The position numbers and the translations under genes were made by a program. Under the pieces are notes generated by a model that saw only the letters and a list, made by a program, of their open reading frames with translations, made no database searches and was not told the origin of the DNA. 64,000 bases of DNA from Saprospiraceae bacterium (lineage in GTDB: Bacteria; Bacteroidota; Bacteroidia; Chitinophagales; Saprospiraceae), in contig JABAQQ010000002.1 of assembly GCA_019187225.1 (NCBI GenBank), positions 1 through 64,000 on the forward strand, read 5' to 3'. Positions within the stretch are counted from its first letter, which is position 1; every line of letters starts with the position of its first letter. This document shows positions 2,183-64,000 of this stretch, in pieces.

Positions 2183-2222
2183 TTTGGACCCTGGATTTTT
2201 GGACGTTGGACCATTGGAAGTT
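2183..2222. repeat. Heptamer-like tandem repeat, TTGGAC family
   Basis: Degenerate tandem copies of a 7-8 nt unit related to TTGGACN (ttggacc, ttggacg, ttggacc) start 11 bases after the stop codon at 2171. The same unit recurs at 14750-14817 and 41957-41988. The remainder of the gap to 2440 is AT-rich with no recognisable gene. Confidence 0.7.
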
Positions 2223-2440
2223 GGCTGAAGGATGATTTTATCAAAAACCAAATGTCAATGAGTCCGACGTCCAATTGATTTTCGATTTTTGAAGTACAGC
2301 CACATTCCTGGTATTTTCTTATGCAGGCATCAAAAATCATCCTTATTACATTTACTTCGATAGTCTGAAATCATGTAATCAACATTCGGAAATCAAAAGA
2401 TCATCATGCTGAATCTTGATGCATTTGCCCTTCCCGGTCC

Positions 2441-3421
2441 CTATTCCCCATCCACTTCCTGCTCCTTGTGTCGCAGCGACACTACCACGCCGACTAAAAG
2501 GAACAACCCGATAACCCCCAGCGACAACCCGATAGGAATGTGGACTTTCAGTGGCATGAGCATCATTTTTGCTCCGATAAAAAACAGGATGGCAATGAGG
2601 CTGTAATGCAGGTATTTGAAGCGGTCGAGCACATTGGCCAGCACGAAATAGAGCGAGCGCAGCCCCAGAATGGCAAAAATATTGGAAGAAAAAACCAGAA
2701 ATGCGTCGGTCGTAATAGAGAACACCGCAGGTACCGAGTCGAATGCGAACAGGATGTCGGTCGTTTCGATCACCATAAGCGCCACGAACATCGGCGTCAC
2801 GGCACGACGTCCGTTCTCGATGGTAAAAAAATGTCCCTCGTCGTAACGGCTGCTGACCGGGTAAAACTTCCGGATGAGCCGGACTACTGTACGTTTGTTG
2901 ACATCCTGCTCTTCGCCATCCTGCTGGTGGCGCAACATCTTGAACGCCGAGTATATCAGCAACAACCCGAAGATATAGAACAGCCACGTGAAATGATGCA
3001 CCAATGCCACGCCTACGCCGATCAGGATGCCCCGGAATACCAGTACGCCCAAAATGCCCCAAAAAAGGATGCGATGCTGGTATTTTTTCGGTACCCGGAA
3101 CTGCGCGAACACCAATGCCATCACAAAAAGGTTGTCAATGCTCAGCGATTCTTCCAGCAAATAACCCGTAAAAAATTTGAGCGCAGCCTCGGCGCCGTCC
3201 ATTGGTTCATGGGGATCGGTACCGAGCCCCCACCAATGCTTTTCGTAAGCGTAATAGATAAAGACATTGAACGCCAAAGCCAGACCTATCCAGCCGAATG
3301 TCATGTACAGGGCTTCCCTGGCAGAGGGAGAGTGCGCTTTTTTATTAAAAACGCCGAGGTCAACTGCCATGAGTACCAGTACCAGGGCAATAAAAGAAAT
3401 CCAAACGATAGGGTCTATCAT
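2441..3421 (-). CDS. TerC/Alx-family integral membrane protein
   Basis: 326 residues with about nine hydrophobic segments. Family landmarks are visible: VDLGVFNK near residue 20, ESLSIDNLFV at 91-100 and ETTDILFAFDSVPAVF in the second half; the acidic residues in these segments are the conserved intramembrane carboxylates of TerC/Alx proteins. Family members are implicated in manganese export or in loading metal onto exported proteins; which applies here is not known. The start at 3421 (MIDPIVW) is preferred over an ATG 39 bases upstream because the first transmembrane helix then begins directly. It stands alone, with a small inverted repeat (GCGCAAA/TTTGCGC, 3477-3498) in the gap before the divergent protease. 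Confidence 0.9.
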   Translation of the reverse strand: MIDPIVWISFIALVLVLMAVDLGVFNKKAHSPSAREALYMTFGWIGLALAFNVFIYYAYEKHWWGLGTDPHEPMDGAEAALKFFTGYLLEESLSIDNLFVMALVFAQFRVPKKYQHRILFWGILGVLVFRGILIGVGVALVHHFTWLFYIFGLLLIYSAFKMLRHQQDGEEQDVNKRTVVRLIRKFYPVSSRYDEGHFFTIENGRRAVTPMFVALMVIETTDILFAFDSVPAVFSITTDAFLVFSSNIFAILGLRSLYFVLANVLDRFKYLHYSLIAILFFIGAKMMLMPLKVHIPIGLSLGVIGLFLLVGVVVSLRHKEQEVDGE

Positions 3422-3658
3422 ATCAGCGTGAAGTGAGGGTGCTTTGCAGGATTTTAGCAAACCTTATTGTAAAACGGCGCAAAGTTCGTCGTTTGCGCAA
3501 ACAATCCTACATTTGGCACAAAGAAGGAAATAAATTGCGGAAAAATGACGGAGCATGAGCCGTCGGGCTTGGAATGACGGATATTGGCTAAGGCCGGATA
3601 TTTTACCCCGAAAACCCCAGAGCTATGTAATCGTATTTTTAAAACCGCTTTTGCATAT

Positions 3659-6600: not shown

Positions 6601-7732
6601 TACCAGCCCCGGCGAGGAAGATTATCTCGATCTGATGCCGATGGATCTGAACGGCATAAACAAACCGGCCATCGCTTTCGACCTTGCCCATGTGGGCGAC
6701 GACAATGACGGCGAAACGCTTCGGGTGGAAGTGTTTCCGGCCTGCGACCTCGAAGCGCCGCCTGTGGTGGTGTGGGAAAAAAGCGACCTCGAACTGGCGA
6801 CGGCTGCATTCACCAGCGCTTCTTTTACCCCGAACGAGGCAGTAGACTGGCGCCGGGAGGTTGCCGATCTGAGCGGATTTGCAGGACAAAAGATCATCAT
6901 CCGCTTCGTCTCCGTCAACGGACCGGGAAACAACATTTTTTTGGATAACATCGGAATTGTAGAGTACAACATCAGCCAACCGGAGGCGGTGTTCGTGGCA
7001 TTTGCCGATTCTATATGTCCCGGCGATACGGTGTTATTTGCCGCTGCTCCGACCGGCGGGGACTTCACCAATTACGATTGGCATTTTGGTTATCTCTCAG
7101 AACCTGTCTCAGCTTCCGGCCCCGGTCCCCACACTGTCTCGTACCTCACAGCCGGCGATAAGAACGTCCGGCTGATCGTCTACAACGCGCTTGGCGCGGA
7201 CACCATCCTCCAGATTGCCAAGGTACTGATCGCGCCGTCGCCCAACTATGCCGTTCAACTCGACGGCCTGACCGCGACGTTCACCAATTCCAGCCAGAAC
7301 GCGTTGTCCTATCTATGGGAATTTGGCGACGGGAACACGAGTACGGCCGTCAATCCGGTGCATACCTATTTGACGCCGGGTAATTACACGGTCAAATTGT
7401 TGGCCACCAATCAATGCAAGACGAGCACCAAATCCCTCAACCTGCCCGTTACGGTCGGCGTGGAAGACCTCGCCACGCGCCTCGGCATTCGCATTTCGCC
7501 CAACCCAACAGCGGGCGATTTTCGGGTGGAAATGGACAGCCAGACGGATGCGGGCACAATCCGGTTCTCGCTGTTCGATGCGCAGGGACGTTTGATAAAA
7601 GAAGTGGAAACGACTGTTAAACAGGGATTTAATCAAGTGACATTTGAAAATCTGCAACTTCCTAAAGGCGTGTACCAACTCAACGTACAGGCAGGGAACG
7701 GGTGGCAGGGATTTGCAGTGGTAGTGCAGTAG
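3659..7732 (+). CDS. Secreted S8 (subtilisin-family) protease with PKD and T9SS domains
   Basis: 1357 residues. Signal peptide at 1-20 (ending IPLYGQ), a propeptide, then an S8 catalytic domain with the triad visible: Asp in VSILVRDDG (about 239), His in DGNHGDGVGG (about 266) and Ser in SGTSAAAPG (about 435). After it come a P-domain-like segment, Ig-like domains, a choice-of-anchor/MAM-like jelly roll (EDFEGSDFPPFGW, about 935), at least one clear PKD domain (YLWEFGDGNTST, about 1217) and a T9SS type-A sorting domain (ISPNPTAGDF ... LPKGVYQLNV). It should be exported across the outer membrane by T9SS and act extracellularly on proteins. The start at 3659 is chosen because it heads the signal peptide. 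A hexamer-repeat block begins at the base after its stop codon. Confidence 0.92.
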   Translation: MKKIYVLLLPAVLAIPLYGQQTFPVRFESGTEYFPENYPEVRKNPAVNANEIINGYYVRYVQCTQIPLATERAVLEAEGVQFIEYVSFGTYLTAIPKHFDLGKFEKIRVRSIVPVKTWWKLARSLREQPYGDWAVHGDWLDVNVQVYPHVSITQGAERCRQNGMTVRFEGNQNGFLQVRLLKDKLESAAALPWVRSLELVPPPSQPDDTRGRSLHRANGLDSDHTLGKKYNGEGVSILVRDDGPIGPHIDFKGRLSNLTGSGSDGNHGDGVGGIFAGAGNLDPSVKGMAAGATVYAIRYTPEFQDQTLPLHLNQNVTITNTSYSNGCNAGYTMAAQTVDQQLFQHPTLMHVFSAGNSNNISNCQSYGAGNQWGNITGGHKMAKNAIATANLNPDATLVSSSSRGPAYDGRLKPDISANGNEQASTDPNNAYITFSGTSAAAPGIAGCLAQLTHAYKQLTNGQEPETALLKAAILNTANDLGNTGPDFKFGWGHVNASRALRLLEENRFLWGQADHGQQITHTLQIPANVREARLMVYWADPPAAINADKALLNDLDLSVTATDDAIHLPWKLNPTPNAIILAQPAGRGRDSLNNTEQVVIENPVPGAYTVQINGAEVPFGPQEYVLVWEFLTEEVRITYPAGGEGFVPGETERIHWDAYGEQGTFSLRYSTDGGFSWQQIADLPGNQRMYDWQVPNVASGRVRLLLQRGLNSHTTELPLTIAPLPTEIEIEKVCPTFMRVSWKPANDTLSSQVYLLGNKYMEIKGNTASNTFDIPLQNGGSEQWVSVRAVGANGLTGRRAVAVQWPGELKNCIQPDDLGVRSIESPDETTKIRCSAFSIPVTIQLKNEGTNAVSGAMLNYQANNNPVVSQNVPVIPPGQTTIFTFQTPITVNANGPIDLKVWSTYAAEDAFFNDTLRRNFIAIVQPANGYFTEDFEGSDFPPFGWRITNPDAGFTWSKTGLNITGLDGQPTRAVFLNTFYYTSPGEEDYLDLMPMDLNGINKPAIAFDLAHVGDDNDGETLRVEVFPACDLEAPPVVVWEKSDLELATAAFTSASFTPNEAVDWRREVADLSGFAGQKIIIRFVSVNGPGNNIFLDNIGIVEYNISQPEAVFVAFADSICPGDTVLFAAAPTGGDFTNYDWHFGYLSEPVSASGPGPHTVSYLTAGDKNVRLIVYNALGADTILQIAKVLIAPSPNYAVQLDGLTATFTNSSQNALSYLWEFGDGNTSTAVNPVHTYLTPGNYTVKLLATNQCKTSTKSLNLPVTVGVEDLATRLGIRISPNPTAGDFRVEMDSQTDAGTIRFSLFDAQGRLIKEVETTVKQGFNQVTFENLQLPKGVYQLNVQAGNGWQGFAVVVQ

Positions 7733-7893
7733 GCAGTGGGCAGTGGCAGTGGGCAGTGGCAGTAGCAGCTGGCCAATGCTACTGCCACTGCCACTGCCCA
7801 CTGCCCACTGCCACTGCCCACTGCCTACTGCCACTGCCACTGCCACTGCCACTGCCACTGCCACTGCCACTGCCACTGCCACTGCCCACTGTA
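7733..7893. repeat. CACTGCC hexamer/heptamer repeat with inverted arm
   Basis: The whole 161-base gap between two convergent genes is made of degenerate GGCAGT / ACTGCC units. The first about 40 bases are in one orientation (gcagtgggcagtggcagt) and the rest in the opposite one, separated by a short loop near 7770-7780, so the segment can fold into a long hairpin. It begins immediately after the protease stop codon and ends at the GH31 stop codon. A second block of the same unit is at 42185-42309. Confidence 0.9.
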
Positions 7894-14619: not shown

Positions 14620-14749
14620 TGCAAAACGGTTGAGTGAACGAAAATACTGTTGTTGCACCGGTTTGCCGTGAAAGACAGGGTAGGGCGGGGGAAGGGTTGG
14701 GTTAGAGAGGGGAAATCATTTGAGTTATTTTTTTGCCAGATTCCTGAAA

Positions 14750-14817
14750 TTGAAATTTGGACATTGTCCATCGTCCAATGTCCAATGTCTAATTTCCAAT
14801 TTCCAATTTCCAATGCT
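14750..14817. repeat. CCAATGT/TTGGACA heptamer repeat with inverted arm
   Basis: Heptamers related to ccaatgt and ccaattt run in tandem from 14776 to 14815, preceded by an inverted arm (ttggacattg, 14756-14765), so a hairpin is possible. The block ends two bases before the tyrS stop codon. Confidence 0.8.
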
Positions 14818-17412: not shown

Positions 17413-17509
17413 GTTTGAAATATCCAATTTTGCCGGTAAAATTGAAGAAAGTTTTAGTGCCGGCATGTCTTGTTCTATTATCCGTCGGTATTGCCCTATT
17501 TTTGCCCCG

Positions 17510-17542
17510 CAATCCGCAATCCGCAATCCGCAATCCGCAATC
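17510..17542. repeat. CCGCAAT heptamer tandem repeat at a start codon
   Basis: Four near-perfect head-to-tail copies of the heptamer ccgcaat end two bases before the TTG codon proposed as the permease start. The same unit occurs in coding sequence at 27146-27243 and at 28849-28868. Confidence 0.9.
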
Positions 17543-17544
17543 AC

Positions 17545-18840
17545 TTGAACCTTCCCTTTTTCATCGCCCGCCGCATCGCTTTTTCCGGAGGAAAGAATTT
17601 TTCCCGGATCATCATCCGCATTGCCATTGTGGCGGTCGCGCTCAGCGTGGCCGTGATGATAGCGGCGACGGCGCTGATCGCGGGTTTTAAAAGCGAGATC
17701 AGCCGCAAGATATTCGAGTTTTGGGGGCATATCCACATTTCGGATACGGCCTATTCGCTGTCGTTCGAACCGGCGCCCATCGAGCGCGAGCAGGACTTTT
17801 ATCCTTCGCTCGATACCCTGAGAGGCGTGTACTACAAGGAACCGCAGACCATTCTCGGTTTTGAAACGGGCCGCGAAGTAGAAATCCACACGTACGGCGG
17901 CGTCCGGCACATCCAGGTGTTCGCCCACAAACCAGGCATCATCCGCACCAAAACGGCGATGGAGGGCATCATACTGAAAGGAATAGGCAAAGATTTCGAC
18001 TGGAGCAACCTGACACCTTATCTGCTGGAAGGTCAACCCATCGCGCTCGGCGACACGGTCTCGCGCGATATTATCATCAGCCGCCAGACGGCCGACCGCT
18101 TGCAGGTGGGTGTGGGCGATCGGTTCATTGTACACTTTGTAAAAGCGGGCGAACAACTCCGTCGCCGCTTCCAGGTCTGCGGCATTTACAAAACCGGCCT
18201 CGAAGAATACGACCGCAAATTCGCGATCTGCGACATCCGCCAGACGCAGGAACTGCTCGGCTGGACGGAGAACGAAGTGGCGGGCTTCGAGATCTGGCTC
18301 GACGACCTGCGCGATCTCGATATTTACAACGACTACATTTATTCGGAGGTATTGCCGCCCGAACTGCTGTGCACGAGCATCCGCTCGAAATTTCCCGCTA
18401 TTTTCGAGTGGTTGTCGCTGCAAGACCTGAATGAAGTCGTCATCCTCGGCCTGATGCTCGCTGTCGCCATCGTGAACATGATCACGGCGCTGCTGGTGCT
18501 GGTGTTAGAGCGCACCACGATGATCGGCGTGCTCAAAGCTTTGGGCGAGACCAACCGCCGCATTCGCCGCATTTTTCTCTACTATGCTGCTGTCATTACG
18601 CTGACCGGCATGTTCTGGGGCAACCTCCTTGGCCTGGGCTTTTGCTTTTTGCAGGACAAATTCCGCTTTATCCAGCTCAACGAAGCGGATTATTATCTCT
18701 CCTATGCACCGGTGAAAATCAACTGGCTGGCCGTTGCGGGGGTGAATACCGGCACCCTCGCGGTCACGCTGTTGTTCCTTATTTTGCCGTCGCTGCTGGT
18801 GTCGAAAATCGCGCCGGTGAAGGCCATTCAATTCAAGTAA
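17545..18840 (+). CDS. LolC/E-type ABC transporter permease (FtsX family)
   Basis: 431 residues. N-terminal LNLPFFIARRIAF followed by a first transmembrane helix (IVAVALSVAVMIAATALIAGF), a large periplasmic MacB-like domain, and three C-terminal helices (LGLMLAVAIVNMITALLVLVL, IFLYYAAVITLTGMFWGNLLG, VTLLFLILPSLLV), the four-helix layout of lipoprotein-releasing permeases. The family sends lipoproteins from the inner membrane to LolA. The start is probably TTG at 17545, which gives the usual family N-terminus; an ATG at 17470 would add 25 residues encoded by the CCGCAAT repeat. No ATPase gene lies next to it. Confidence 0.85.
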   Translation: MNLPFFIARRIAFSGGKNFSRIIIRIAIVAVALSVAVMIAATALIAGFKSEISRKIFEFWGHIHISDTAYSLSFEPAPIEREQDFYPSLDTLRGVYYKEPQTILGFETGREVEIHTYGGVRHIQVFAHKPGIIRTKTAMEGIILKGIGKDFDWSNLTPYLLEGQPIALGDTVSRDIIISRQTADRLQVGVGDRFIVHFVKAGEQLRRRFQVCGIYKTGLEEYDRKFAICDIRQTQELLGWTENEVAGFEIWLDDLRDLDIYNDYIYSEVLPPELLCTSIRSKFPAIFEWLSLQDLNEVVILGLMLAVAIVNMITALLVLVLERTTMIGVLKALGETNRRIRRIFLYYAAVITLTGMFWGNLLGLGFCFLQDKFRFIQLNEADYYLSYAPVKINWLAVAGVNTGTLAVTLLFLILPSLLVSKIAPVKAIQFK

Positions 18841-22351: not shown

Positions 22352-22411
22352 ACAATTGAAATTAAAGTAATTGAAGTCATTGAGGGTCATTAGGGGTCAT
22401 TAGAGTCATTA
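22352..22411. repeat. GGTCATTAG repeat, left arm of a split hairpin
   Basis: Degenerate 9-10 nt units (gtcattgag, ggtcattag, gggtcattag, agtcatt). Its reverse complement follows at 22643-22691, so the two arms would pair; a 214-bp element now sits in the loop. Confidence 0.85.
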
Positions 22412-22415
22412 CTCA

Positions 22416-22629
22416 GGGACTGTTCAAAATATTGTATTTCTGTTCGTTGTTTTTTTATTTAGTAACGGCTAAAAAACAAGTACCTGACTTTCCCTGTCCA
22501 CCGTGCCTCGGAATGGCACGGTGGTTAAGAAAATGAGAACTTATTTTTTGATCGTTACGTAAAGTGTTGAATAAAAAATATTTGAATATTGTAATTATAT
22601 AAATTTGGGACAAATTTTAGAGCAGTCCC
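22416..22629. mobile_element. MITE-like element with 8-bp target duplication
   Basis: The 214-bp segment starts GGGACTGTTC-AAAATATTG and its end, read on the other strand, is GGGACTGCTCTAAAATTT-G, giving about 17 of 20 matching terminal positions. It is flanked by an exact 8-bp direct repeat, ATTACTCA, at 22408-22415 and 22630-22637. It codes for no protein. A 10-bp perfect stem (CCACCGTGCC/GGCACGGTGG, 22498-22524) lies inside. The terminal sequence and 8-bp duplication fit non-autonomous derivatives of IS6- or IS256-type elements. No related transposase gene is in the window. Confidence 0.85.
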
Positions 22630-22642
22630 ATTACTCATGAAT

Positions 22643-22691
22643 GCCTTTCAACGACCCCTAATGACTCTAAATGACCCCTAATGACTCTTAA
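22643..22691. repeat. ATGACCCCTA repeat, right arm of the split hairpin
   Basis: Units acgacccct, aatgactct, aaatgacccct and aatgactctt in tandem, the reverse complement of the left arm at 22352-22411. Confidence 0.85.
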
Positions 22692-22778
22692 TACCCCCGC
22701 GGCAAAGATTTTGAAAATTCCTCACCGCCCCAATCCGCCGGACAGTTTTTCTAATTTCGCCGCAGATTTTTGACACTT

Positions 22779-26845: not shown

Positions 26846-27874
26846 ATGAACGCGCAAAACTCCCTCTCCGATGCCACCGGTTATTTCGGCCCGGATACGA
26901 TTACCTGGCACCTTTACCGGGAACCCATTTTCGTTTTAGGCGGCGTCCGCGCCTTGCTCCTGCAAATCGCGCATCCAGCAGTGGCCGACGGCGTGGCGCG
27001 GTACAGCGGCTTTCAGGCGGATCCCTTCGGTCGTGGTTACCGCACTTTCGCGGCGATGGCGATGATCTATTTCGGCAACAGAAAACAGGCGGAAGCGACG
27101 GCGCAGCGCCTTTGGCGCATCCATTCGGCCATTCGGGGAACGTATCCGATTGGGGATTGGGGATTTCGGATTGCGGATTCGACGGCCCCTGAATCCGCAA
27201 TCCGAAATCCCCAATCCCCAATCCGCAATCCGAAATCCGAAACCCCCTATTCCGCCAACGACCCCGACTTGCTCTTTTGGGTGTTGGCGACACTCACCGA
27301 AACGACCTTACAAGTATACGAACGATTGCCTTTTTTGAATTTGCCACCCGACTGGAAAGAGCGGTTTTACGAAGAAAGCAAAATTGCCGCTCACTTACTC
27401 GGTATTCCCGATTCGGCTTATCCGCCTGATCTACAATCATTTTATTACCAATTTAAAGAAATCCTGAACGGCAAATTGCCCGGCAGCACCGCGACTTGCC
27501 GCGAAATGGCGCAGGCGATCGTCCGGCATCCCCGCGCGCCGAAAAAGTGGGCGACCTTATTTGCAGCCGGCTGGCTGCCAGCCTCACTATGCAACCGGCT
27601 TGGCATCGAAGCGGGCGAAAATCCGGAGATCAGACTGGAAAAATGGATCCGTCGTTTTGGTCGGGTGTATTGTCTTATACCGGTATGGTTGCGCTACAAT
27701 CCCGCATATCACCAGGCGCAATACCGGATCGCGAAAGCGAATGGCAAAGCGCCGACGCCGGCGGGGCGTTTTTTTACATGGCTGGGCAGGAGGATGAAGG
27801 TGCCGATGGGGTTGGAGGTAAGCCGGAAGTCTGTTCCGGAGATATCGCCGGAACAGACTTCCGGCTTACTTTAG
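26846..27874 (+). CDS. MpaB/DUF2236-family oxygenase with in-frame repeat insertion
   Basis: 342 residues. Matches the oxygenase MpaB family (heme-binding fold shared with latex-clearing protein) in [56 protein letters not shown] and [16 protein letters not shown]. Between GTYP (about residue 98) and PYSANDPDL, about 33 residues ([13 protein letters not shown]) are encoded by the CCGCAAT repeat at 27146-27243; family members have a short loop here. The last 18 residues come from a perfect palindrome. It ends overlapping the thyA stop codon by 4 bases. Confidence 0.85.
27146..27243. repeat. CCGCAAT repeat with inverted arm inside coding sequence
   Basis: A first arm (gattgggg, gatttcgg, attgcgg) and its reverse complement (ccgcaat, ccgaaat, ccccaat units) flank a short loop near 27181-27192. 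Length is a multiple of three overall, so the MpaB reading frame continues through it. Confidence 0.9.
27818..27869. repeat. 22-bp perfect palindrome, copy 1
   Basis: Arms 27818-27839 and 27848-27869 are exact reverse complements with an 8-base loop. The outer parts (GTAA.CCGGAA and GTTCCGG) match the copy at 45102-45156 while four inner bases differ on both arms together. It lies in the 3' end of the MpaB gene, next to the thyA stop codon. Confidence 0.95.
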
Positions 27875-28672: not shown

Positions 28673-28711
28673 ATATTGAGATATTTCGATATTGGGATAT
28701 CTCCGCAAATA
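28673..28711. repeat. ATATTGRG octamer repeat in the thyA leader
   Basis: Four 8-nt units, atattgag, atatttcg, atattggg, atatctcc, directly upstream of the thyA start. Confidence 0.6.
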
Positions 28712-28870: not shown

Positions 28871-30955
28871 ATGCAATTTGTTTTTCCCGCGTTTCTCGCC
28901 GCCCTGGCTGTTTTGGCGATCCCTGTCATCATCCACCTGTTTTATTTCCGGCGCTTCAAAAAAGTGTATTTCACCAACGTGCGTTTTTTGAAGGAGGTAA
29001 AAGAAGAGACCAGCAACCGCCAGAAATTGCGTAACCTGCTGGTGCTGCTGATGCGTTGCCTGGCGATCGCTGCGATGGTGCTGGCGTTCGCGCAGCCCTT
29101 TATCCCGCTGTCGTCGGGAGTGAAGAAAGGTGAAAGAGCTGTGAGTGTATATGTGGATAATTCGTTCAGCATGAACTCTTTGTCCAAAGACGCACCGCTG
29201 CTCGAACTGGCCAGGCAACGCGCCCGCGACATCGTGAACGCTTTCGGCGTGGAAGACCGTTTTCAAATTCTGACCAATGACTTCGAGGGCCGCGACCAGC
29301 GTCTGGTGAGCAAGGAAGATGCCCTCGACCGCATCGAGGAAATCCGGTCCGGCCCGGCTTCGCGCGACCTCTCTAAAGTACTCACCCGGCAACAGCAATG
29401 CCTCAACAACGGCATACAAGAAAACAAAATCGCTTATGTCGTGAGCGATTTCCAGAACAACATCGCCGATGTGACAAACTTCAGGGACTCTCTCATCGAA
29501 GTCAATCTGGTGCCGATGCGCGCCGTACAGGAACGCAACGTATCGGTAGACAGCGTGTGGTTCGAGAGTCCGGTACAGATACTCAACCAGCCCGCCAACC
29601 TGCTGGTGAAACTCAGCAACCGCAGCGACGAGGACGCTTCTGAGATACGCCTCAGCCTTCGTCACGACGGGCAGGCGAAGCCCGTCGGCTCCGTCAGCAT
29701 ACCGGCCCGCAGCAGCAAACTCGATACGGTGAGTTTTAATATCCTGCATCCCGGCTGGCACGAAGCCAAACTTTCGATAACGGATTACCCGGTCCAGTTC
29801 GACGACGATTACTACCTTTCGTTTCACGTCGCCGAGCGTATCAATGTTTTGTCCATTAATGGTTTACAGCCAAATAAGTATCTGAACAACGCGTTTTTGG
29901 GCGCCAAATATTTTCACCTCGACAACGCCAATGCAGGGGCGCTGGATTATTCAAAGTTCCCGGATTATCAATTGATCGTCCTCAACGAGTTGGGGGCTAT
30001 TTCCTCCGGTCTCGCGACGGAATTGAAATCATTTGCTCAAAATGGCGGCAATGTGCTCGTTTTTCCCGCGCCCACCGCCGATCTGAATTCCTACAACGCG
30101 TTTCTGCAAAACTTCGGAGTGGGCAACATAGGTGCATACGAACCGACACCCCGCCAGGCCAGCCAGATCAATACCGACGAATTTGTCTTTAAAGACGTAT
30201 TCCTGAACAAAAGCGCTAACCTCCGCCTGCCCGCCACCCAGGGCAACTTCAAACTCGCGCCGGCCAGCGGCGAACACATCCTTACTTATCGCGATGGTAT
30301 GGCCATGCTGGCAAAATATCCGCAGGGCGAAGGCGCGCTGTATTGCTCCGCGGCGCCGCTCAGCGAACAGGTGAACGACCTTGTCCGCAACGGAGAGATA
30401 TTCGTGCCCATGTTGTTCAAAATGGCCATCGCCGGCACCAAAGGCAGACAGATCGCATATACCATCGGAAAAGACGAAGTGCTGGAGGCCAAACACCAGG
30501 TGGCCGCTTCCGGTGAAAGTATTTACAAGTTGCAACAAGTAGCTGAGGACGCCGCACCGTCCACCATCCGCCGTCCACCGTCCACCGTCTCATCGTCAAC
30601 CGTAGAAGAGTTCATCCCCGAACAACGCATACTCGGCTCGAAAGTGCTGCTCACACCCGGTACGCAGGTGCGCGACGCGGGCTGGTACCGTCTGCATCTG
30701 CAGGGCGACAGCACGCTGGCAGAGTATGCTTTTAACTACGACCGTAAGGAAAGCGACCTGAGTTATAAAACCGACGACGCACTCGCGGAGGGCTTGCCGA
30801 AAAACATGAAAGTGCTCGCCGAAAACGCCGAAGCCAACTTCGGCCAGGTGGTGGGCGAGCAGGAGCGCGGCATCGTGTTGTGGCGCTGGTGCGTCGTTTT
30901 TGCCCTGCTGTTTTTGGCGTTGGAGGTGCTGTTTTTGAGGTTGTGGAAGGTGTGA
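28871..30955 (+). CDS. BatA-domain protein with von Willebrand-type region
   Basis: 694 residues. It starts with a BatA/aerotolerance N-terminal hairpin of two helices (FLAALAVLAIPVIIHLFYF and LVLLMRCLAIAAMVLAFA), has a VWA-like segment with MIDAS-type residues in VYVDNSFSMNS (about 96), a long periplasmic region of Ig-like and glutamine-amidotransferase-like strands, and a C-terminal helix (WCVVFALLFLALEVLFLRLW). Bat proteins are linked to stress tolerance in Bacteroidota. Residues about 561-578 (APSTIRRPPSTVSSSTVEE) are encoded by a heptamer repeat. It converges on dnaN, whose stop codon is the next base. Confidence 0.85.
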   Translation: MQFVFPAFLAALAVLAIPVIIHLFYFRRFKKVYFTNVRFLKEVKEETSNRQKLRNLLVLLMRCLAIAAMVLAFAQPFIPLSSGVKKGERAVSVYVDNSFSMNSLSKDAPLLELARQRARDIVNAFGVEDRFQILTNDFEGRDQRLVSKEDALDRIEEIRSGPASRDLSKVLTRQQQCLNNGIQENKIAYVVSDFQNNIADVTNFRDSLIEVNLVPMRAVQERNVSVDSVWFESPVQILNQPANLLVKLSNRSDEDASEIRLSLRHDGQAKPVGSVSIPARSSKLDTVSFNILHPGWHEAKLSITDYPVQFDDDYYLSFHVAERINVLSINGLQPNKYLNNAFLGAKYFHLDNANAGALDYSKFPDYQLIVLNELGAISSGLATELKSFAQNGGNVLVFPAPTADLNSYNAFLQNFGVGNIGAYEPTPRQASQINTDEFVFKDVFLNKSANLRLPATQGNFKLAPASGEHILTYRDGMAMLAKYPQGEGALYCSAAPLSEQVNDLVRNGEIFVPMLFKMAIAGTKGRQIAYTIGKDEVLEAKHQVAASGESIYKLQQVAEDAAPSTIRRPPSTVSSSTVEEFIPEQRILGSKVLLTPGTQVRDAGWYRLHLQGDSTLAEYAFNYDRKESDLSYKTDDALAEGLPKNMKVLAENAEANFGQVVGEQERGIVLWRWCVVFALLFLALEVLFLRLWKV
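30551..30605. repeat. CCGTCCA/GACGGTG heptamer repeat in coding sequence
   Basis: Tandem heptamers of the kind ccgtcca, ccatccg, ccgtcca, ccgtcca, ccgtctc, cgtcaac within the BatA-like gene, keeping the frame open. The same unit occurs in coding sequence at 51244-51278 and 63344-63373. Confidence 0.85.
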
Positions 30956-32074: not shown

Positions 32075-32083
32075 GGAAAAGAA

Positions 32084-32140
32084 GGTTTACGGGTTTCAGG
32101 TTGACGGGTTCGCGTGTTTACGGGTTAGCTGGTTAACGGG
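32084..32140. repeat. GGGTTNNC octamer repeat in the dnaN leader
   Basis: Degenerate 7-8 nt units (gggtttca, ggttgac, gggttcgcg, gggttagc, ggttaacg) starting 10 bases upstream of the dnaN ATG. Reverse complement of the block at 32555-32640. Confidence 0.8.
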
Positions 32141-32388
32141 AAACGCGGCAAATGTATATCCCTCTGCGCGGCTTTTTTTTCTAAAAAATTAACAACCTGT
32201 GGAAAAAAACGGAAAAATCTACCTTCGCACTCCCGATCTGAAACCACGGGGTTGTGTCAAAGGTCTTTAAAGTGTCCTGTTGTTGAAAACGAAAAGAATT
32301 ATAATTGGTTGTTAGGGTTGTTTCAGAAGTCCAATGTTTAAAAGATTGTTTTTTGATTGCCAAATTATTATCGCCAAACGCAATTGAA

Positions 32389-32421
32389 AAATTTAACAAC
32401 TTTTTAAAAGTTGTCAAATTT
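32389..32421. repeat. 16-bp AT-rich hairpin
   Basis: AAATTTAACAACTTTT and AAAAGTTGTCAAATTT are reverse complements with one mismatch, separated by a single T. It lies at the centre of the dnaN upstream gap. Confidence 0.8.
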
Positions 32422-35116: not shown

Positions 35117-35213
35117 GATGAATGATGAATGAAGAATGATGAATGATGAACTATAAGCGACAGTTTGTATCATCATTCATCATTTATCATTCATCATTTA
35201 TCATTCATCTTTC
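35117..35213. repeat. GATGAAT heptamer hairpin between mreB and mreC
   Basis: Heptamers gatgaat (five units, 35117-35151) and, after a short loop, their reverse complement (catcattcat, catttatcatt, 35171-35213). Up to 34 bases could pair. It lies in the operon gap, 6 bases after the mreB stop codon and 6 before mreC. Confidence 0.95.
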
Positions 35214-42184: not shown

Positions 42185-42309
42185 TCAACCCACTGCCCAC
42201 TGCCCACTGCCACTGCCCACTGCCACTGCCCACTGCCACTGCCACTGCCCACTGCCACTGCCACTGCCACTGCCACTGCCACTGCCACTGCCACTGCCAC
42301 TGCCACTGC
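42185..42309. repeat. CACTGCC tandem repeat
   Basis: About 18 consecutive copies of a 6-7 nt unit (cccactg or ccactg) in one orientation, ending at the queE stop codon. The same unit forms the block at 7733-7893. Confidence 0.95.
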
Positions 42310-43080
42310 CTACACCCCCTTCTTCGCTCCCCATATTTGCACATGTAAGCGGTCGGAATAACGGAAACCATATGTTTTGCAAATTTCCACCAGCCATTTC
42401 CGCCGCTGGCCCAACACCCTTGCGGAAGTGCCCTCCGGCATGAGCCAGACTTTTGCGGGAGAAATGGCATAGGTGATCAGCAGCGCCAGCACTTCGTCGA
42501 GATCGTTTTTTTCGGCGATGACAAATTTGAAATTGGCTTTCGGCGATTGCGCGAAAAAACGGAGCGCCGCCGGCTTTTCGCGGAGGCGGCGTGTGTTTCC
42601 GCTGTTTTCCAATTTCGGGGACACATTGTACTGGTCAACCACCGCATCGAATTCGGCAGTTGGAACCATTGTGCCGTTCGTTTCCACCTCGAAACGGTAG
42701 TCTGCTGATCTTGAACGCAATGTGTGCATCATTGCCGTCAAAGCGGGTTGCTGGAGCATCGGTTCGCCGCCGGTAAGGATCACGTTTTTACAGGGAAATG
42801 CTGCTACAATTTCTGCCACTTCCGTTATCTCACATCGGGCGATCCATTCTTTTTTGTCAAACTTGCGATAACCGGGTTTCGCATCGTTCACATGCGGGAA
42901 CGGTGTGCCGGTCCAGTTCCAGGTGTAGTCCGTATCACACCAGATGCAGTGGAGGTTGCACAGCGAAGTGCGCACGAACACGGAGGGTATGCCAATGCTT
43001 TTTCCTTCGCCCTGGATGGAGAAGAATATTTCGGGACGTCCGTGGAGTTTGGCAAGTTTGAGCGATATGGGAATGGCCAC
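42310..43080 (-). CDS. queE: 7-carboxy-7-deazaguanine synthase
   Basis: 256 residues. Radical SAM enzyme of queuosine and 7-deazapurine synthesis, converting carboxytetrahydropterin to CDG. The cluster motif CNLHCIWC (Cys 41, 45, 48) sits right after the N-terminal strand EIFFSIQGEGKSIGIPSVFVRT that is typical of QueE; NVILTGGEPMLQQ is the SAM-binding GGEP motif. Other queuosine genes are not in the window. The stop codon adjoins the CACTGCC repeat. Confidence 0.93.
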   Translation of the reverse strand: MAIPISLKLAKLHGRPEIFFSIQGEGKSIGIPSVFVRTSLCNLHCIWCDTDYTWNWTGTPFPHVNDAKPGYRKFDKKEWIARCEITEVAEIVAAFPCKNVILTGGEPMLQQPALTAMMHTLRSRSADYRFEVETNGTMVPTAEFDAVVDQYNVSPKLENSGNTRRLREKPAALRFFAQSPKANFKFVIAEKNDLDEVLALLITYAISPAKVWLMPEGTSARVLGQRRKWLVEICKTYGFRYSDRLHVQIWGAKKGV

Positions 43081-45101: not shown

Positions 45102-45156
45102 TGTAACCCGGAACAGCGTTCCGGTGAATTATCCCGGAACGCTGTTCCGGGTTACA
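45102..45156. repeat. 23-bp perfect palindrome, copy 2
   Basis: Arms 45102-45124 and 45134-45156 are exact reverse complements. The right arm contains the pyrE stop codon. It is a relative of the 27818-27869 copy with compensated differences (inner CAGC/GCTG in place of GTCT/AGAC). Confidence 0.95.
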
Positions 45157-45781
45157 CATAAAGCGCACCCCAGCCGTCTGGGTTTTCGCGCCATTTTTTT
45201 AAGGTACTCAGGTCTTCTTCAGAAACATAGCCGGTACGGGCTGCTTCTTGTATAAGTGAATCGTAGTTTGTAAGCGTTTGGAAATGAACTTGTTTTTCGG
45301 CAAAGGCCGCCTGCGCTTTCGCAAATCCGTATTGAAAGATCGCCAGGACGCCTACTACTTCCACCCCGGTATCACGAAGGGCATCCACTGCCAACAGGCA
45401 ACTCCCCCCCGTGCTGATCAGGTCTTCAACGACCAGTACACGCTGACCGGGGTGTAGTTCGCCTTCGATCTGGTTGCGCCGTCCGTGGTCTTTGGCGCTG
45501 CTTCGGACATAAACGAATGGTTTGTTCAACAAGTCGGCTAACAAGACGCCGTGCGGAATTCCGGCCGTCGCAACACCCGCCACAACCTCGAAATCGCCGA
45601 ATATCGCCGATTTTTCCAACAAACAATTTTTGAGGTAAGTTCTCACTCCGGGATGGGACAATGCCACGCGGTTGTCGCAGTAGATCGGCGACAATAATCC
45701 GGAAGCCCAGGTGAACGGATCGCGGGGGCTGAGTTTGACGGCTTTGATCTCGAGTAAGTTGCGGGCGACTTCAGCTTGCAT
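45152..45781 (-). CDS. pyrE: Orotate phosphoribosyltransferase
   Basis: 209 residues. It converts orotate and PRPP to OMP in pyrimidine synthesis. The PRPP motif is VLVVEDLISTGGSCL; the N-terminal LSPRDPFTWASGLLSPIYCDNR and VRSSAKDHGRRNQIEG are typical of the family, the latter being the catalytic loop. The last codons (ALYV and TAA) are in or next to the palindrome at 45102-45156, which provides the stop codon. No pyrF is next to it. Confidence 0.95.
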   Translation of the reverse strand: MQAEVARNLLEIKAVKLSPRDPFTWASGLLSPIYCDNRVALSHPGVRTYLKNCLLEKSAIFGDFEVVAGVATAGIPHGVLLADLLNKPFVYVRSSAKDHGRRNQIEGELHPGQRVLVVEDLISTGGSCLLAVDALRDTGVEVVGVLAIFQYGFAKAQAAFAEKQVHFQTLTNYDSLIQEAARTGYVSEEDLSTLKKWRENPDGWGALYV

Positions 45782-45790: not shown

Positions 45791-45904
45791 GGTTACCGGG
45801 TTTCGGGTTGACGGGTTAGCGAGCTGTTAACTGTGCCGTGAGCGGCTTGATGGATCAATGGAATTTTTTTGACCGTTAACCCGTCAACCCGAAACCCGTT
45901 AACC
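45791..45904. repeat. GGGTTNNC octamer hairpin upstream of pyrE
   Basis: Left arm 45791-45820 and right arm 45875-45904 match as reverse complements at about 27 of 30 positions, with a 54-base loop. It belongs to the same unit family as 32084-32140 and 32555-32640. It fills most of the divergent gap between pyrE and the Nudix gene. Confidence 0.9.
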
Positions 45905-50031: not shown

Positions 50032-50070
50032 AACGACGTCAAACGACATCAAACAATTTCAAACGATCAT
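50032..50070. repeat. AACGACNTCA decamer repeat
   Basis: Four 10-nt units (aacgacgtca, aacgacatca, aacaatttca, aacgatcat) end at the LolA-like stop codon. Confidence 0.75.
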
Positions 50071-50799
50071 CTACTTCTTCGCCGGCATCTCGAATATCTT
50101 CTCGTCTACTGTCGGGTTGAGGGTAACGGCAGTAACGGTGATCGTGGAATTGCCCATCATCGGATTGGCCTGTTGCATGGTAAAGGGGAAAACGATGTTG
50201 TCCTGGGTTTTAAAGTTGGAATACACCGTCGCGGTTTGCATTTCCTTGCCGTCCACTTCTTCTACCTGGACATTTTTGATCTCGTAGTAGGTCTCAGGAT
50301 CGTAAAAGGCGTACTCGATTTTTTTATCGCCTTTGTTGATCTTGATCTTCAGTGCTTCGGTACCGTCCACGTCTTCTTTGCCGACATACTCGACGGTGTA
50401 GCCTTTTTCTTTGTAACCGACAATGGCGCCGTCAATATCGGTCATGCTGGTCATGGCTTTCACCTGGTCGGCGGTCATGGGTTCGGGGTCGGTTTTGCCC
50501 ATGAAGGGATTGTTGGACCAGCCCTTGTCTCCGTTGATGACCGAAGTTTGGACCATACCCATCACCGAAACATCCATACGTGCAGCTTTATCGCGTACGG
50601 CTACCATCGTCCAGCCGATGGCCATGCCGGCAGCGGCTTCCGATGTGATGTTGGCTTCCATCTTGATGGCTTTTACGTCCTTCCAGTGTTGCGCGCCGGT
50701 GGCTTCGATGTGTTTGGTAATGATGTCTTCAGCGGTTTGGGCTGAGGCGAAAGTGTTGATAATCAGGAGCAATGCTGCTGCTAAGAGCGTTTTTTTCAT
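50071..50799 (-). CDS. LolA-like periplasmic protein
   Basis: 242 residues. Signal peptide at 1-21 (ending FASAQ), followed by AEDIITKHIEATGAQHW and a beta-rich fold with VYSNFKTQDNIVFPF, matching the half-barrel of outer-membrane lipoprotein-sorting proteins (LolA/MlaA-like superfamily as used in Bacteroidota annotation). It may carry a lipoprotein or lipid across the periplasm. The C-terminal TVDEKIFEMPAKK is a common ending for this group. It is a single-gene unit with its own terminator. Confidence 0.85.
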   Translation of the reverse strand: MKKTLLAAALLLIINTFASAQTAEDIITKHIEATGAQHWKDVKAIKMEANITSEAAAGMAIGWTMVAVRDKAARMDVSVMGMVQTSVINGDKGWSNNPFMGKTDPEPMTADQVKAMTSMTDIDGAIVGYKEKGYTVEYVGKEDVDGTEALKIKINKGDKKIEYAFYDPETYYEIKNVQVEEVDGKEMQTATVYSNFKTQDNIVFPFTMQQANPMMGNSTITVTAVTLNPTVDEKIFEMPAKK

Positions 50800-51144: not shown

Positions 51145-52041
51145 ATGCCTACTCGTCGCCGCGCACTCAAAACTTTGCTCGCCGGAGCCGCCGCCCTGAC
51201 AGCTTCGCCCAAACTCTCTTTTGCCGAGATGTCTGAAAACCAACCGTCTACCGTCTACCGTCAACAGTCCACCGTAAGGAAGGGCAACATCCGCCATTCC
51301 GTATGCCGTTGGTGTTTCAACGACACGCCGCTCGACGAACTCTGCCTCTTTGGCAAGCAGATCGGCATTTCTGCAATAGACCTTGTGGGGCCTAAAGATT
51401 GGGAAACCCTGAAAAAACACGGCCTCGACTCCTCCATGTGCAACGGCGCGGAGATCAACCTCGTGGACGGCTGGAACGACCCGAAATTCCACGACAAATT
51501 AGTTCAGAACTATTCGGAAATGATCCCGCTCGTGGCGAAAGCGGGTTACAAAAACCTCATTTGTTTCAGCGGCAACAAACGCGGCATGGACGACGAAACC
51601 GGGTTGAAAAACTGCGTGGAGGGCCTGAAAAAGATCATGTCGCTGGCGGAAAAAAACGGCGTGGTGCTCCAGATCGAAGTGTTCAACTCCAAAGTGAACC
51701 ACCCCGACTACATGGCCGACAACACGCCCTGGACGGTGGAACTCTGCAAACGCATCGGCTCCGAAAACTTCAAGATACTGTGGGACATCTACCACATGCA
51801 GATCAACGAAGGCGACGTGATCCGCACCATCCAGAACAACCACCAGTACTTCGGCCATTACCATACCGCCGGGGTGCCGGGCCGTCACGAGATTGACGAA
51901 ACGCAGGAACTCTACTATCCGGCTATTATGCGGGCTATTGTGGCGACGGGGTATAAAGGTTACGTGGCGCAGGAGTTTATTCCGACGCATGCTAACAAAC
52001 TGGCGTCGCTTGGTAGTGCGATAGACATTTGTGACGTGTAA
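51145..52041 (+). CDS. Tat-exported sugar-phosphate isomerase/epimerase-like TIM barrel
   Basis: 298 residues. A twin-arginine signal (TRRRALKTLLAGAAALTA) precedes an AP-endonuclease-2-like TIM barrel: CRWCFNDTPLDELCLF, GISAIDLVGP, LQIEVFNSKVNHPDYM, ILWDIYHMQINEGDVIR and GHYHTAGVPGRHEID, in which Glu, Asp and His residues form the metal site of hydroxypyruvate-isomerase-like enzymes. It probably works in the periplasm on an oxidised sugar. Residues about 33-45 (PSTVYRQQSTVRK), between the signal and the barrel, are encoded by a heptamer repeat. It precedes the GMC oxidoreductase by 69 bases on the same strand. Confidence 0.88.
   Translation: MPTRRRALKTLLAGAAALTASPKLSFAEMSENQPSTVYRQQSTVRKGNIRHSVCRWCFNDTPLDELCLFGKQIGISAIDLVGPKDWETLKKHGLDSSMCNGAEINLVDGWNDPKFHDKLVQNYSEMIPLVAKAGYKNLICFSGNKRGMDDETGLKNCVEGLKKIMSLAEKNGVVLQIEVFNSKVNHPDYMADNTPWTVELCKRIGSENFKILWDIYHMQINEGDVIRTIQNNHQYFGHYHTAGVPGRHEIDETQELYYPAIMRAIVATGYKGYVAQEFIPTHANKLASLGSAIDICDV
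51244..51278. repeat. CCGTCTA heptamer repeat in coding sequence
   Basis: Heptamers ccgtcta, ccgtcta, ccgtcaa, cagtcca within the isomerase gene, same family as 30551-30605. Confidence 0.8.
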
Positions 52042-60991: not shown

Positions 60992-61021
60992 TGGATGGGA
61001 GGTATATGAGATGAGTGTTGC

Positions 61022-62346: not shown

Positions 62347-62862
62347 TCAATCTTCTTTTTTCCGGACGGTGGCAAAAGTGCCGATTACTTTCTGATACAG
62401 TCGGTCGTGTTGGGATTTGGGGTAAGTCACGTTGATGTTGAGGGTGGTGTTTTTGTCCCAGGGGCGGAGGAACATAATGGCGTAAAAATGTTCCTGGTTG
62501 GGTTCGTCGGCAGGCGGCGTGGCTTCGGTGACAACCAGATACCCCGTGATATCGTTGATTTTCAGGGAATCTTTGGAGATCAGTTTCATCCCTTCCGGCA
62601 TAGTGAGTTCTTTAAAGTCCTCCATGACACGACCGAAAGAGGCGGGTAAAGCCGTGCAGGCTACCTGGGAGCGGGTGGATGTTTCTTCCCAGCCTTGTTC
62701 CGTTTTCGTAAAAGTCGTGTCTGGTGCAGCGATGTCAAACTGCATATTGAAAATGGCCATTAATTCTTCCGTGCTGAGCTCGTCATTCTGACCAAAGGCG
62801 GAAAGACAAAGGCTTAAGATCAAGGCGTTGATAAGCAGGATTTTAGGAATGATTTTTTGCAT
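62347..62862 (-). CDS. Small secreted protein of unknown function
   Basis: 171 residues. The start at 62862 gives a clear signal peptide (IIPKILLINALILSLCLSAFGQ). The mature domain (TEELMAIFNMQFDIAAPD, GMKLISKDSLKINDITGYLVVTEA, FYAIMFLRPWDKNTTLNINVTYP) is strand-rich and resembles other Bacteroidota secreted proteins without a name. The stop codon is adjacent to the RsmB-like start codon (no gap), so the two are cotranscribed in the minus direction. Confidence 0.7.
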   Translation of the reverse strand: MQKIIPKILLINALILSLCLSAFGQNDELSTEELMAIFNMQFDIAAPDTTFTKTEQGWEETSTRSQVACTALPASFGRVMEDFKELTMPEGMKLISKDSLKINDITGYLVVTEATPPADEPNQEHFYAIMFLRPWDKNTTLNINVTYPKSQHDRLYQKVIGTFATVRKKED

Positions 62863-62955
62863 GGTGTATCTATTTTGCGTCTGCAAAAGTAGGCTTTCGA
62901 CGCGGGATTCCATCTATCCTGTTTTCACTATCTTGGCCGCATCAATTGAGCGCTT

Positions 62956-64000
62956 ATGCATTTCCGCCAGGCAATTCTGAAAATTGACAACAAGACGTAT
63001 CTGCTCGCACCGGGGCGATCGAATTCGTTCGATGAAATTTATGTTGATTTTCAAAATCAACCCGAAAGTGGCGGCGAACGCTGGTCCGTTTTTCTCCACC
63101 CCAAACAGGATGTGACGATCCAACGCCTCGAGATTCAGTTCGATCTGCCATTACCTCCCGGCGCCCGTTTCTTTGCCAACGGTTTTCAGTCGTGGAGCGA
63201 AAGCAGGCTCTACGGCCTGAACGAGACGATCCCACGGCTGCGCGCTTTTGCCGGAAAGCACATGGGTTTATATGGCGACGAACACATTCCCGGTATTCCG
63301 TACGGACGCGGTTACCTGCACTCCTGGACGTACACGTATATCACGGTTGACGGCGGACGGTTGACGGCGGACGGCAGTGAGATGTTGTTCATGGGTTCCC
63401 TGAACGAAAGCACGGGTTTTACACTTTTTCTTTATGACCGGCCGAATGCCATCTTCACTGTGCGCAAAGACATGGACGGTCTGCAACTGGCGCATTCGTT
63501 CCCGGCCCTCGATTTTTGGATAGGGCAGGGGAGGGAACCGGAGCTCTTCGACCGGTATTTTCAGATACTCGGAACGCCCCGGTTTGCTGATCCCCCTGCT
63601 CTGGGGTGGACGAGTTGGTATCGCCATTTTAACCGGATTTCGGAGGAAATCCTGCTGCAAAACCTCGACGGGGTGGCCAACAGCGGTTTGCCATTTCAGT
63701 ATTTCCAGGTGGACGACGGCTGGCAGGCTGCTGTGGGCGACTGGCTGACCGTTAAGTCAGGCTTTCCGAACGGCATGGGGGCTTTGGCGCAAACGATCAG
63801 AGCGCGCGGTCTTTCGCCCGGAATTTGGCTGGCGCCGTTTGTGGCGGCGAAAAATTCGGATTTGGTGCGAAAACACCCGGATTGGTTGTTGAAAAATGCG
63901 AAGGGGCAGCCGCTGAAAGCCGGTTGGAACCCAATGTGGGGCGGCTGGTATTACGCATTGGACTTTTATAACAATGAAGTGCGCAACCACCTTGGCGGTG
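62956..64000 (+). CDS. Alpha-galactosidase (GH36-type), truncated at window edge
   Basis: 348 residues are visible and the frame is open to the last base. It starts MHFRQAILKIDNK with no signal peptide. GH36 features: an N-terminal beta-supersandwich (FFANGFQSWSESR), LGWTSWYRHFNRISEE, and the barrel signature YFQVDDGWQAAVGDW followed by GIWLAPFVAAKNSDLVRKHPDW and GWNPMWGGWYYALDF. The catalytic Asp motifs would lie beyond the window. It hydrolyses alpha-galactosides such as melibiose or galactomannan side chains. Residues about 130-140 (VDGGRLTADG) are encoded by a repeat. Confidence 0.9.
   Translation, partial: MHFRQAILKIDNKTYLLAPGRSNSFDEIYVDFQNQPESGGERWSVFLHPKQDVTIQRLEIQFDLPLPPGARFFANGFQSWSESRLYGLNETIPRLRAFAGKHMGLYGDEHIPGIPYGRGYLHSWTYTYITVDGGRLTADGSEMLFMGSLNESTGFTLFLYDRPNAIFTVRKDMDGLQLAHSFPALDFWIGQGREPELFDRYFQILGTPRFADPPALGWTSWYRHFNRISEEILLQNLDGVANSGLPFQYFQVDDGWQAAVGDWLTVKSGFPNGMGALAQTIRARGLSPGIWLAPFVAAKNSDLVRKHPDWLLKNAKGQPLKAGWNPMWGGWYYALDFYNNEVRNHLGG
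63344..63373. repeat. GGTTGACGGCGGAC 14-nt repeat in coding sequence
   Basis: Two adjacent exact copies of a 14-nt unit (two heptamers of the GACGG family) within the alpha-galactosidase gene, in frame. Confidence 0.8.

Follow-up and report, generated by a model that had tools for sequence, protein, structure and literature searches.

The 64,000-nucleotide stretch analysed here (contig JABAQQ010000002.1, positions 1 to 64,000; hereafter the window) is part of a 7,183,558-base genome in 73 contigs from an uncultured Saprospiraceae-like bacterium, labelled G000, and carries short-unit tandem arrays at and between its genes. These arrays probably serve as arms in a group of stem-loop elements that are akin to 23S rRNA intervening sequences (IVSs), lie between protein genes and occur also as gene-less copies. 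A complete element would consist of a G-rich tandem array, a small gene for a 23S rRNA intervening-sequence protein (IVP, or S23p; PF05635/TIGR02436, a four-helix bundle) and a C-rich array of the same unit inverted. Each IVP subfamily would tend to have its own unit, and most copies, including those of the window, would be gene-less hairpins or single arms. Support comes from the layout of the loci, their polarity, the locus-specific complementarity of the arms, the co-variation of unit and protein subfamily, and turnover between relatives; moreover, about half of the gene-less arrays in G000 use units of the genome's own IVP loci.

The gene was first noticed in a related genome, G009, in an array block of ~1.3 kb whose core encodes a small IVP-like protein, and then as a PF05635 match at G009:C1:992079. 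PF05635 matches were obtained in 39 of 42 genomes of the genus (G000 and 41 further genomes), with 11 genes in G000, one of which matched TIGR02436 at 118 bits. A solved relative of the G000 proteins is XCC0516 from Xanthomonas campestris (2gsc; E 1.9e-19). Flanks of 300 bp on each side of the IVP genes were examined. All 11 G000 loci had an array within this distance, with a G array on the left in 10 and a C array on the right in 9, and arm complementarity reached at least 15 in 10. In a genus set made up of the best-scoring PF05635 locus from each of 30 genomes (one locus also being among the 11 of G000), an array was present on at least one side in 30/30 and on both sides in 21/30; left arrays occurred at 25 loci, all including a G array, and right arrays at 26, of which 24 included a C array. 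Complementarity of at least 12 was found in 27 of these loci, compared with 6.2% of 870 cross-locus pairs and none of 23 mreC control loci. The mere presence of an array is less telling than complementary arms as a sign of an IVP element, since 12 of the 23 mreC controls also had an array on one or both sides (on both in one case). Fourteen further IVP loci, chosen from the list in five genomes, all had arrays, and 13 of them had complementarity of at least 12. Ordinary G000 genes rarely showed this layout: complementarity of at least 15 was seen in 5/869 and a G array upstream together with a C array downstream in 16/876, some array lying within 300 bp upstream of 183 and downstream of 165 of the 876. 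None of the 11 G000 IVP genes lies on contig C6, and the hairpins of the window are gene-less. Several PF05635 matches (L162, L163, L167, L177, L190) are less than 250 bases away from the end of their contig, as expected if arrays break assemblies.

The repeat unit follows the protein subfamily. Unit similarity (5-mer cosine) was compared with protein similarity (bit-score ratio) for cross-genome pairs among 56 distinct genus loci. Mean unit cosine increased with rising protein similarity from 0.034 (743 pairs) through 0.050 (537), 0.140 (96) and 0.298 (54) to 0.798 (16). A cosine above 0.3 was observed in 16/16 pairs at a bit ratio above 0.7 and in 0.9% of the 743 pairs at a ratio below 0.2, and the Mantel rho between protein and unit similarity was 0.215 (null maximum 0.177 of 2000). 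The flanks of the 16 similar-protein pairs were homologous on the same side in nine, gave an odd one-sided match in one and had no detectable homology in six; at most these six are unrelated sites, because some flanks are short at contig ends. The GACGGT unit accompanies the MG[KN]FK.LRVW subfamily in G000, G022, G053 and G045, while the units of its members in G009 and G056 are AGGGTAG and TTCACGG; the MKHNFR.LQIWK subfamily in G000 and G052 is flanked by TTGGACT-like units. Arms of the genome's own IVP loci were matched by 66 of 140 gene-less arrays in G000; foreign arms, drawn at random 11 at a time in 2000 rounds, gave a mean of 31 (maximum 62). In G046 the own arms were matched by 7 of 14, compared with 1.4 (maximum 4). 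Across genomes, IVP count and array load were correlated, with Spearman coefficients of 0.80 (n=22) and 0.76 (n=23).

The arrays also have a consistent polarity. A G-rich array (plus strand) near the left gene or a C-rich array near the right gene accounted for 182 of 232 arrays, and the same polarity was seen in lone arrays (71/88) and paired arrays (53/58). The 5' arm was G-rich in 30/30 tandem-armed hairpins (composition A.215, C.079, G.358, T.349). Among plain hairpins, the 5' arm was G-rich in 91 cases and C-rich in 33, with a tie in 16. Polarity is kept in three examples in which the two arms carry different units (C1 246790, C2 200412, C3 187611), and arm copy numbers are often unequal within one hairpin. 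Sampled stretches of 22 related genomes, 8 of which held no noncoding array, showed the polarity in 83/103 arrays and 32/35 pairs. Of the array-bearing intergenic regions that could be tested (113), 62 contained an inverted repeat with a score of at least 12 (58 with a G-rich and 4 with a C-rich 5' arm), as did 108 of 575 array-free regions.

Comparison of relatives revealed turnover. The mreB–mreC intergenic region contains other hairpin units in the relatives L056, L065, L066 and L067 and is array-free in some species. Between G043 and G046, which are 88% identical, hairpins are retained in several regions, with different units, cores and copy numbers. Median identity was 0.61 for array-bearing (n=12) and 0.84 for array-free regions (n=21), and in a second comparison 0.60 (n=8) and 0.82 (n=5); a third comprised two array regions only. 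Gain, loss or replacement of a whole intergenic region was seen between G009 and G007, which are about 94–95% identical. At site 1, the IVP block of ~1.3 kb in G009 corresponds to a short mini-hairpin in G007, and a repetitive extragenic palindromic (REP)-like palindrome lies both within the arms of the element in G009 and at the corresponding place in G007. At site 2, an IVP element in G007 corresponds to an unrelated hairpin in G009. At site 3, an IVP element in G009 (L280, G009:C1:394520-396745) corresponds to another hairpin in G007. One array of the L280 element adjoins the start codon of the neighbouring gene, of which seven G007 codons are absent in G009, and the other abuts the stop codon of the next gene, so that the element itself sets the gene ends there. 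Judging from its translations, the same L280 element is interrupted by IS3-like transposase frames. Two other hairpin families, around GGCTTGYCCGGCCAAGCGGAGCGGACGG and around TTTGTCATYCTGTCGG, were noted at L125/L142 (G009/G007); the TTTGTCATYCTGTCGG family occupies the site of the IVP-less species at two of the three gain/loss sites.

The association extends beyond the genus. PF05635 was detected in 298 of 395 sampled genomes of Bacteroidota. A tblastn search with one IVP protein returned 25 plasmid records, mostly from cyanobacteria, and a second protein returned 22, including four from Riemerella. Twenty-one plasmid loci were analysed, near-duplicates and most partial matches being omitted, with plasmids standing in for cyanobacterial and Xanthomonas chromosomes. 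Right arrays were C at 14 loci and G at none, left arrays included G at 16 and C at 7, and two loci had no array; at the lax Tandem Repeats Finder (TRF) threshold applied, 27 of 210 shuffled flanks also yield an array. Complementarity of at least 12 was present in 13/21 loci compared with 6.0% of 420 cross pairs. Fifteen of the first 16 plasmid loci lie beside or between protein genes, the remaining record having no annotation. Several of these IVP genes are situated within operons. One is located between ribonucleotide reductase genes and opposite to their direction, two (L193 and L200, from two different cyanobacteria) lie between cas6 and cas4, and another lies between cas10 and cmr3. Among viral contigs, 8 of 12 usable loci (of 13) had complementary arms compared with 6.9% of cross pairs.

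Array abundance and placement were determined in 1.264 Mb of G000 (17.6% of the 7.18-Mb genome), in which genes were called with our own simple dicodon model and start codons are approximate. A scan for periods of 5–30 yielded 253 short-unit tandem arrays compared with 11 in the control, one Markov-1 sequence. There were 149 intergenic arrays, 56 straddling a gene edge and 48 fully coding (coding share of bases, 87%), so that 205/253 lay partly or wholly outside called genes. Repeat periods in G000 are 6–10, not 7 alone. The 14-mer CCGCAATCCGCAAT occurs in 193 exact copies across the genome, and its read-backwards control in none; it was present in 2/24 same-genus and 2/15 same-order genomes tested. 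The preliminary description of the window had proposed a genome-wide, many-family system of repeats far above chance, which is borne out by these counts. Its figure of about nine families is an undercount according to the genome survey, and its statement that most arrays have an inverted arm applies to a slight majority of array-bearing regions only, inverted repeats being found in array-free regions too.

For the distance to gene edges, arrays with a period of 5–12 and a score of at least 45 were re-placed at random within their own intergenic regions in 1000 rounds. Of 147 intergenic arrays, 69 were no more than 5 nt from a gene edge, compared with 22.6 at random placement (maximum 38), and whole array blocks lay at this distance in 62/117 cases compared with 34.6 expected (maximum 46). 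Stops are hugged more closely than starts: with a laxer threshold (232 arrays), 37/118 arrays at stop edges overlapped the gene and 34/118 lay at 0–5 nt, the corresponding numbers at start edges being 7/114 and 22/114. No excess near genes was observed for the outer ends of tandem-armed hairpins (15/30 compared with 11.4; maximum 18) or for plain paired stems (35/140 compared with 37.8 expected), which argues against boundary precision. Thus, of the precise spacing to codons described earlier, the part concerning arrays was confirmed, while paired stems are no nearer to genes than chance. Array-bearing intergenic regions have a median length of 189 and a median of 92 outside the array block, compared with 103.5 for array-free regions, and the arrays therefore look added to ordinary intergenic regions. 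Occupancy was 79/521 (15.2%) in tandem, 18/137 (13.1%) in convergent and 20/153 (13.1%) in divergent regions.

The proposed process would involve movement of the elements and recognition, by the IVP protein, of its unit in DNA or RNA. Cleavage of the long hairpin by RNase III may render insertion between the genes of an operon tolerable. An element that replaces the whole intergenic region, with reading starting or ending at the first available codon, would produce the tight fit to gene ends; this pattern of gene-end rewriting was seen at one site (site 3 of G009/G007). Between slippage, template switching and a mobile process, which the preliminary description had left undecided, a specific mobile-element hypothesis can now be stated because complete copies carry the S23/IVP gene. 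Both slippage and template switching are probably still at work in the arms as secondary processes, given that the arms of a hairpin often differ in copy number.

Those two processes could also be the whole explanation, with replication slippage and fold-back template switching building arrays wherever selection allows and IVP genes merely landing in the loops. In favour of this account are arms of unequal length, copy numbers that differ between relatives, the faster divergence of array-bearing regions and arms that stay complementary at each locus while the unit differs among species. It does not predict, however, that units match IVP subfamilies even at sites without flank homology, that complementary flanks occur at most IVP genes and almost no ordinary genes, or that polarity is uniform in 30/30 hairpins, and it is considered unlikely. 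A telomere-like or fold-back-only origin was set aside as the main account because units follow IVP subfamilies. Still less probable is that the hairpins are maintained by selection as signals for transcription or RNA processing (terminators, attenuators, insulators), with incidental units. Long complementary hairpins do persist in corresponding intergenic regions of different species, and inverted repeats are commoner in convergent regions (42/100) than in tandem (103/445) or divergent ones (25/143). Array occupancy is nevertheless about equal across the three orientations, regions shrink or drop their array in close relatives, and the IVP gene is left unexplained. Terminators as the only function were rejected on this roughly equal occupancy, there being no preference for gene ends over divergent regions.

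REP-like elements or miniature inverted-repeat transposable elements moved by an ordinary transposase, for example of the Y1 family (IS200, or REP-associated tyrosine transposase, RAYT), would be another source of dispersed hairpins. The palindrome in the arms of the G009 element and its G007 counterpart at site 1 points in this direction, and Y1 genes are present in 34/42 genus genomes. Y1 count did not correlate significantly with array load, however (Spearman 0.22, p 0.32, 22 genomes; and 0.21), and G053 has arrays and no Y1 match. With no tracking of array load seen in these counts, a Y1/RAYT driver is disfavoured, and the transposase account as a whole, of which this comparison covers the Y1 family only, is regarded as very improbable.

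Several observations weigh against stem-loop elements related to IVSs as the source of the arrays. Array-free intergenic regions (357) also lean G-rich on the left (218:112) and C-rich on the right (229:105); because this weaker form exists without arrays, part of the polarity may reflect general composition or decayed arrays. The IVP loci themselves are not uniform, with an extra C array on the left in 5/30 genus loci and a G array on the right in 5/30, two of the latter without a C array. Left arrays of viral contigs include G in only 5/8, so that polarity there is mixed. Among the 30 best-scoring Bacteroidota matches, an array was present in 11/30 and complementary arms in 11/30 (cross pairs 3.9%), and the link between IVP and arrays is not universal. 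At bit ratios of 0.5–0.7, the unit is common to only 37% of 54 pairs. Own-arm matches of gene-less arrays showed weak or no excess in G022 (3/21), G043 (2/13) and G006 (5/16). In G000 itself, no arm of the genome's own IVP loci matches 74 of the 140 solo arrays, among them those of ATTGCGG, GTCATTAG, GATGAAT and TTGGACA; the TTGGACA arrays did not reach the threshold for a match, and the ATTGCGG arrays (the CCGCAAT family) had no matching arm. Of the 140, 79 match one of 45 foreign IVP arms. Only 11 IVP genes were found in G000, compared with, by extrapolation, a thousand or more arrays. After phylogenetic contrasts the correlation of IVP count with array load was reduced to r=0.38 (p=0.039), with loads taken from small samples. 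No target-site duplication was evident by eye at the three G009/G007 sites, where the whole intergenic region differs, and neither a catalytic enzyme nor movement was seen.

TRF analysis of the window (score at least 30) gave 50 rows. Most loci listed in the preliminary description hold TRF arrays, with rows at or near them including 28673–28700, 14765–14815, 32083–32140, 32556–32639 and 45873–45904. The exceptions are 28868, which has no array, and 2183, where only a degenerate TTGGAC hairpin without a TRF row was found (2199–2274; arms 2199–2216 and 2256–2274). Nine of the ten examples given of boundary placement do have an array or arm near a called gene edge; the example at 17542 counts only if the gene starts near 17545, which the Pfam domains permit. 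The wider claim that repeats are fixed at gene boundaries agrees with the excess of arrays within 5 nt of gene edges, but four of the listed arrays lie inside called open reading frames (ORFs; 27148–27239, 30555–30603, 51243–51275 and 63349–63375).

The GCAGTG/CACTGCC hairpin at 7715–7891 lies between convergent genes with stops at 7732 (plus strand) and 7894 (minus strand), and its left arm overlaps the final codons and the stop; the GGCAGT unit found here flanks two G000 IVP genes, L210 and L212. A TTGGACA/TGTCCAA hairpin with array (14746–14815) ends 3 nt short of the end of the tyrosyl-tRNA ligase gene (14819, minus strand), and the related units GTTGGACT and GGACTGTT flank IVP genes C3a and L215. 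Five CCGCAAT units (17507–17542, plus strand) lie immediately 5' of a MacB/FtsX-like gene with domains in 17545–18840. Between divergent genes, GGTCATTAG/CTAATGACC arms enclose a 247-nt core (22376–22692; TRF rows 22376–22411 and 22659–22692); the flanks of IVP genes L226 and L227 (G007 and G009) carry a similar unit. Arms of GGTTTACG/AACCCGCA (32084–32140 and 32558–32615, the array extending to 32639) enclose a 417-nt core and lie 9 and 7 nt from the start codons of dnaN (minus strand, 32074) and an M16 peptidase gene (plus strand, 32647); the related unit GGTTGGCG/AACCCGTC flanks IVP gene L214. Dead IVP genes were considered for the 417-nt (32140–32558) and 247-nt (22411–22659) cores and rejected, as neither had a recognisable match to the IVP-protein profile, which in the 1.264-Mb sample detected three intact genes only, the next matches having E ~3. 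The GATGAAT/ATTCATC hairpin (35117–35213; TRF 35117–35150 and 35170–35213) fills the mreB–mreC intergenic region. A CAGTGG array (gene sense; 42190–42310, minus strand) begins at the stop of a radical-SAM gene (42310–43080), and a TGATGTCGTT array (50032–50071, minus strand) lies directly 3' of the stop of the gene at 50071–50799. The GGTTNNCGGG/CCCGNNAACC hairpin (45791–45904) separates divergent genes; its arm at 45791–45818 is a stem and not a TRF row. A non-tandem palindrome of 23 perfect pairs at 45102–45156 overlaps the end of the gene at 45152–45781.

The arrays within ORFs comprise a GATTGCG/CGCAATC hairpin (27148–27239) in an MPAB_Lcp-domain ORF (26846–27874), a CACCGTC array (30555–30603, plus strand) in a BatA-domain ORF (28871–30955), an ACCGTCT array (51243–51275, plus strand) in the N-terminal part of the ORF at 51145–52041 and a GACGGYK array (63343–63374, plus strand) in the ORF at 62956–63999. 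The hairpin at 27148–27239 keeps the frame open in a conserved MPAB_Lcp gene (domain, residues 24–271) and is possibly an in-gene insertion comparable to an rRNA IVS. The array at 51243–51275 lies upstream of a xylose-isomerase-like TIM barrel domain in the same gene. The GACGGT unit, as at 63343–63374, flanks G000 IVP gene L209. Overall, the window families GGCAGT, GACGGT, GGTTNNCGGG and GATATTGG have an own-genome IVP locus with the same or a related unit, and TTGGACN has one less closely related; CCGCAAT, GATGAAT and GTCATTAG have none. The observation in the preliminary description is confirmed and its interpretation partly supported; the polarity and the S23/IVP gene in complete copies were overlooked.

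The short tandemly repeated repetitive (STRR) sequences of cyanobacteria are degenerate tandem heptamers between genes. The resemblance noted earlier is upheld, as the G000 arrays are likewise degenerate, tandem and intergenic, at many loci and in many families, and arrays on cyanobacterial plasmids flank IVP genes. The host phylum differs, the nearest named relative of G000 by MreC being a Saprospiraceae metagenome-assembled genome (68% identical). No link between STRR sequences and IVP genes, and no paper joining S23/IVP proteins to tandem-repeat arrays, was found among the open-licence PMC matches listed.

A close described counterpart is the IVS of Coxiella, a stem-loop with an S23p ORF in its loop that has been called a selfish element and whose stem is cleaved by RNase III in vitro (PMC4990558). 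As in that description of a 23S rRNA IVS, complete copies here have a PF05635-type ORF within a complementary-ended stem. In contrast, G000 elements lie between protein genes, several per genome, with gene-less copies dominating, and their arms are tandem arrays of 6–10-nt units that vary by protein subfamily. Insertion into a 23S rRNA gene was not found: no known RNA family at gathering score is present in the window, and the 15 annotated plasmid IVP loci lie beside or between protein genes instead. The window also contains no tRNA. In Xanthomonas and Nostoc, GGGAATC or GGGGA(C/T)T heptamers are described as preferring sites close to genes (within 50 bp), on the antisense strand when upstream and on the sense strand when downstream, and two Xanthomonas genomes contain inverted pairs, 70 and 75 in number (PMC4692102). 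They are G-rich and have the polarity seen in G000, but that account takes a single consensus for each genus and deals with them as formers of G-quadruplexes. Its main text contains no mention of four helix, helix bundle, S23, intervening or xcc0516. The TAACTGA arrays of Beggiatoaceae are described as lying mostly directly 5' of start codons, with a unit common to some cyanobacteria and Bacteroidetes (PMC4679880). They share with the present arrays the heptamer form at gene starts, and differ in being a single family, with one inverted case in that genome, and in being read as translational regulation; the text does not mention four helix, S23 or intervening.

It is conceivable, if doubtful, that IVP/S23p proteins are the agents of bacterial heptamer repeats in general, forming a minimal mobile stem-loop family of several phyla in which each subfamily recognises and propagates, or perhaps templates, its own unit, so that IVS, STRR, GGGAATC and TAACTGA would be one system. 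This broader proposal is made less likely by the Nostoc strain studied in PMC4692102, in which inverted pairs are few and the pattern is absent from the plasmids. The same paper describes no general link of the heptamers to mobile elements, which likewise tells against simply extending the stem-loop reading.

Several bacterial groups are rich in heptamer arrays, which have served for strain fingerprinting (STRR fingerprinting). The link between S23/IVP proteins and arrays suggests a candidate maker for repeat families in several of these groups, and joining the two makes a protein-repeat recognition code testable. It would also imply a class of elements able to rewrite the ends of genes and the regions between them, which may supply candidate RNase III sites within operons.

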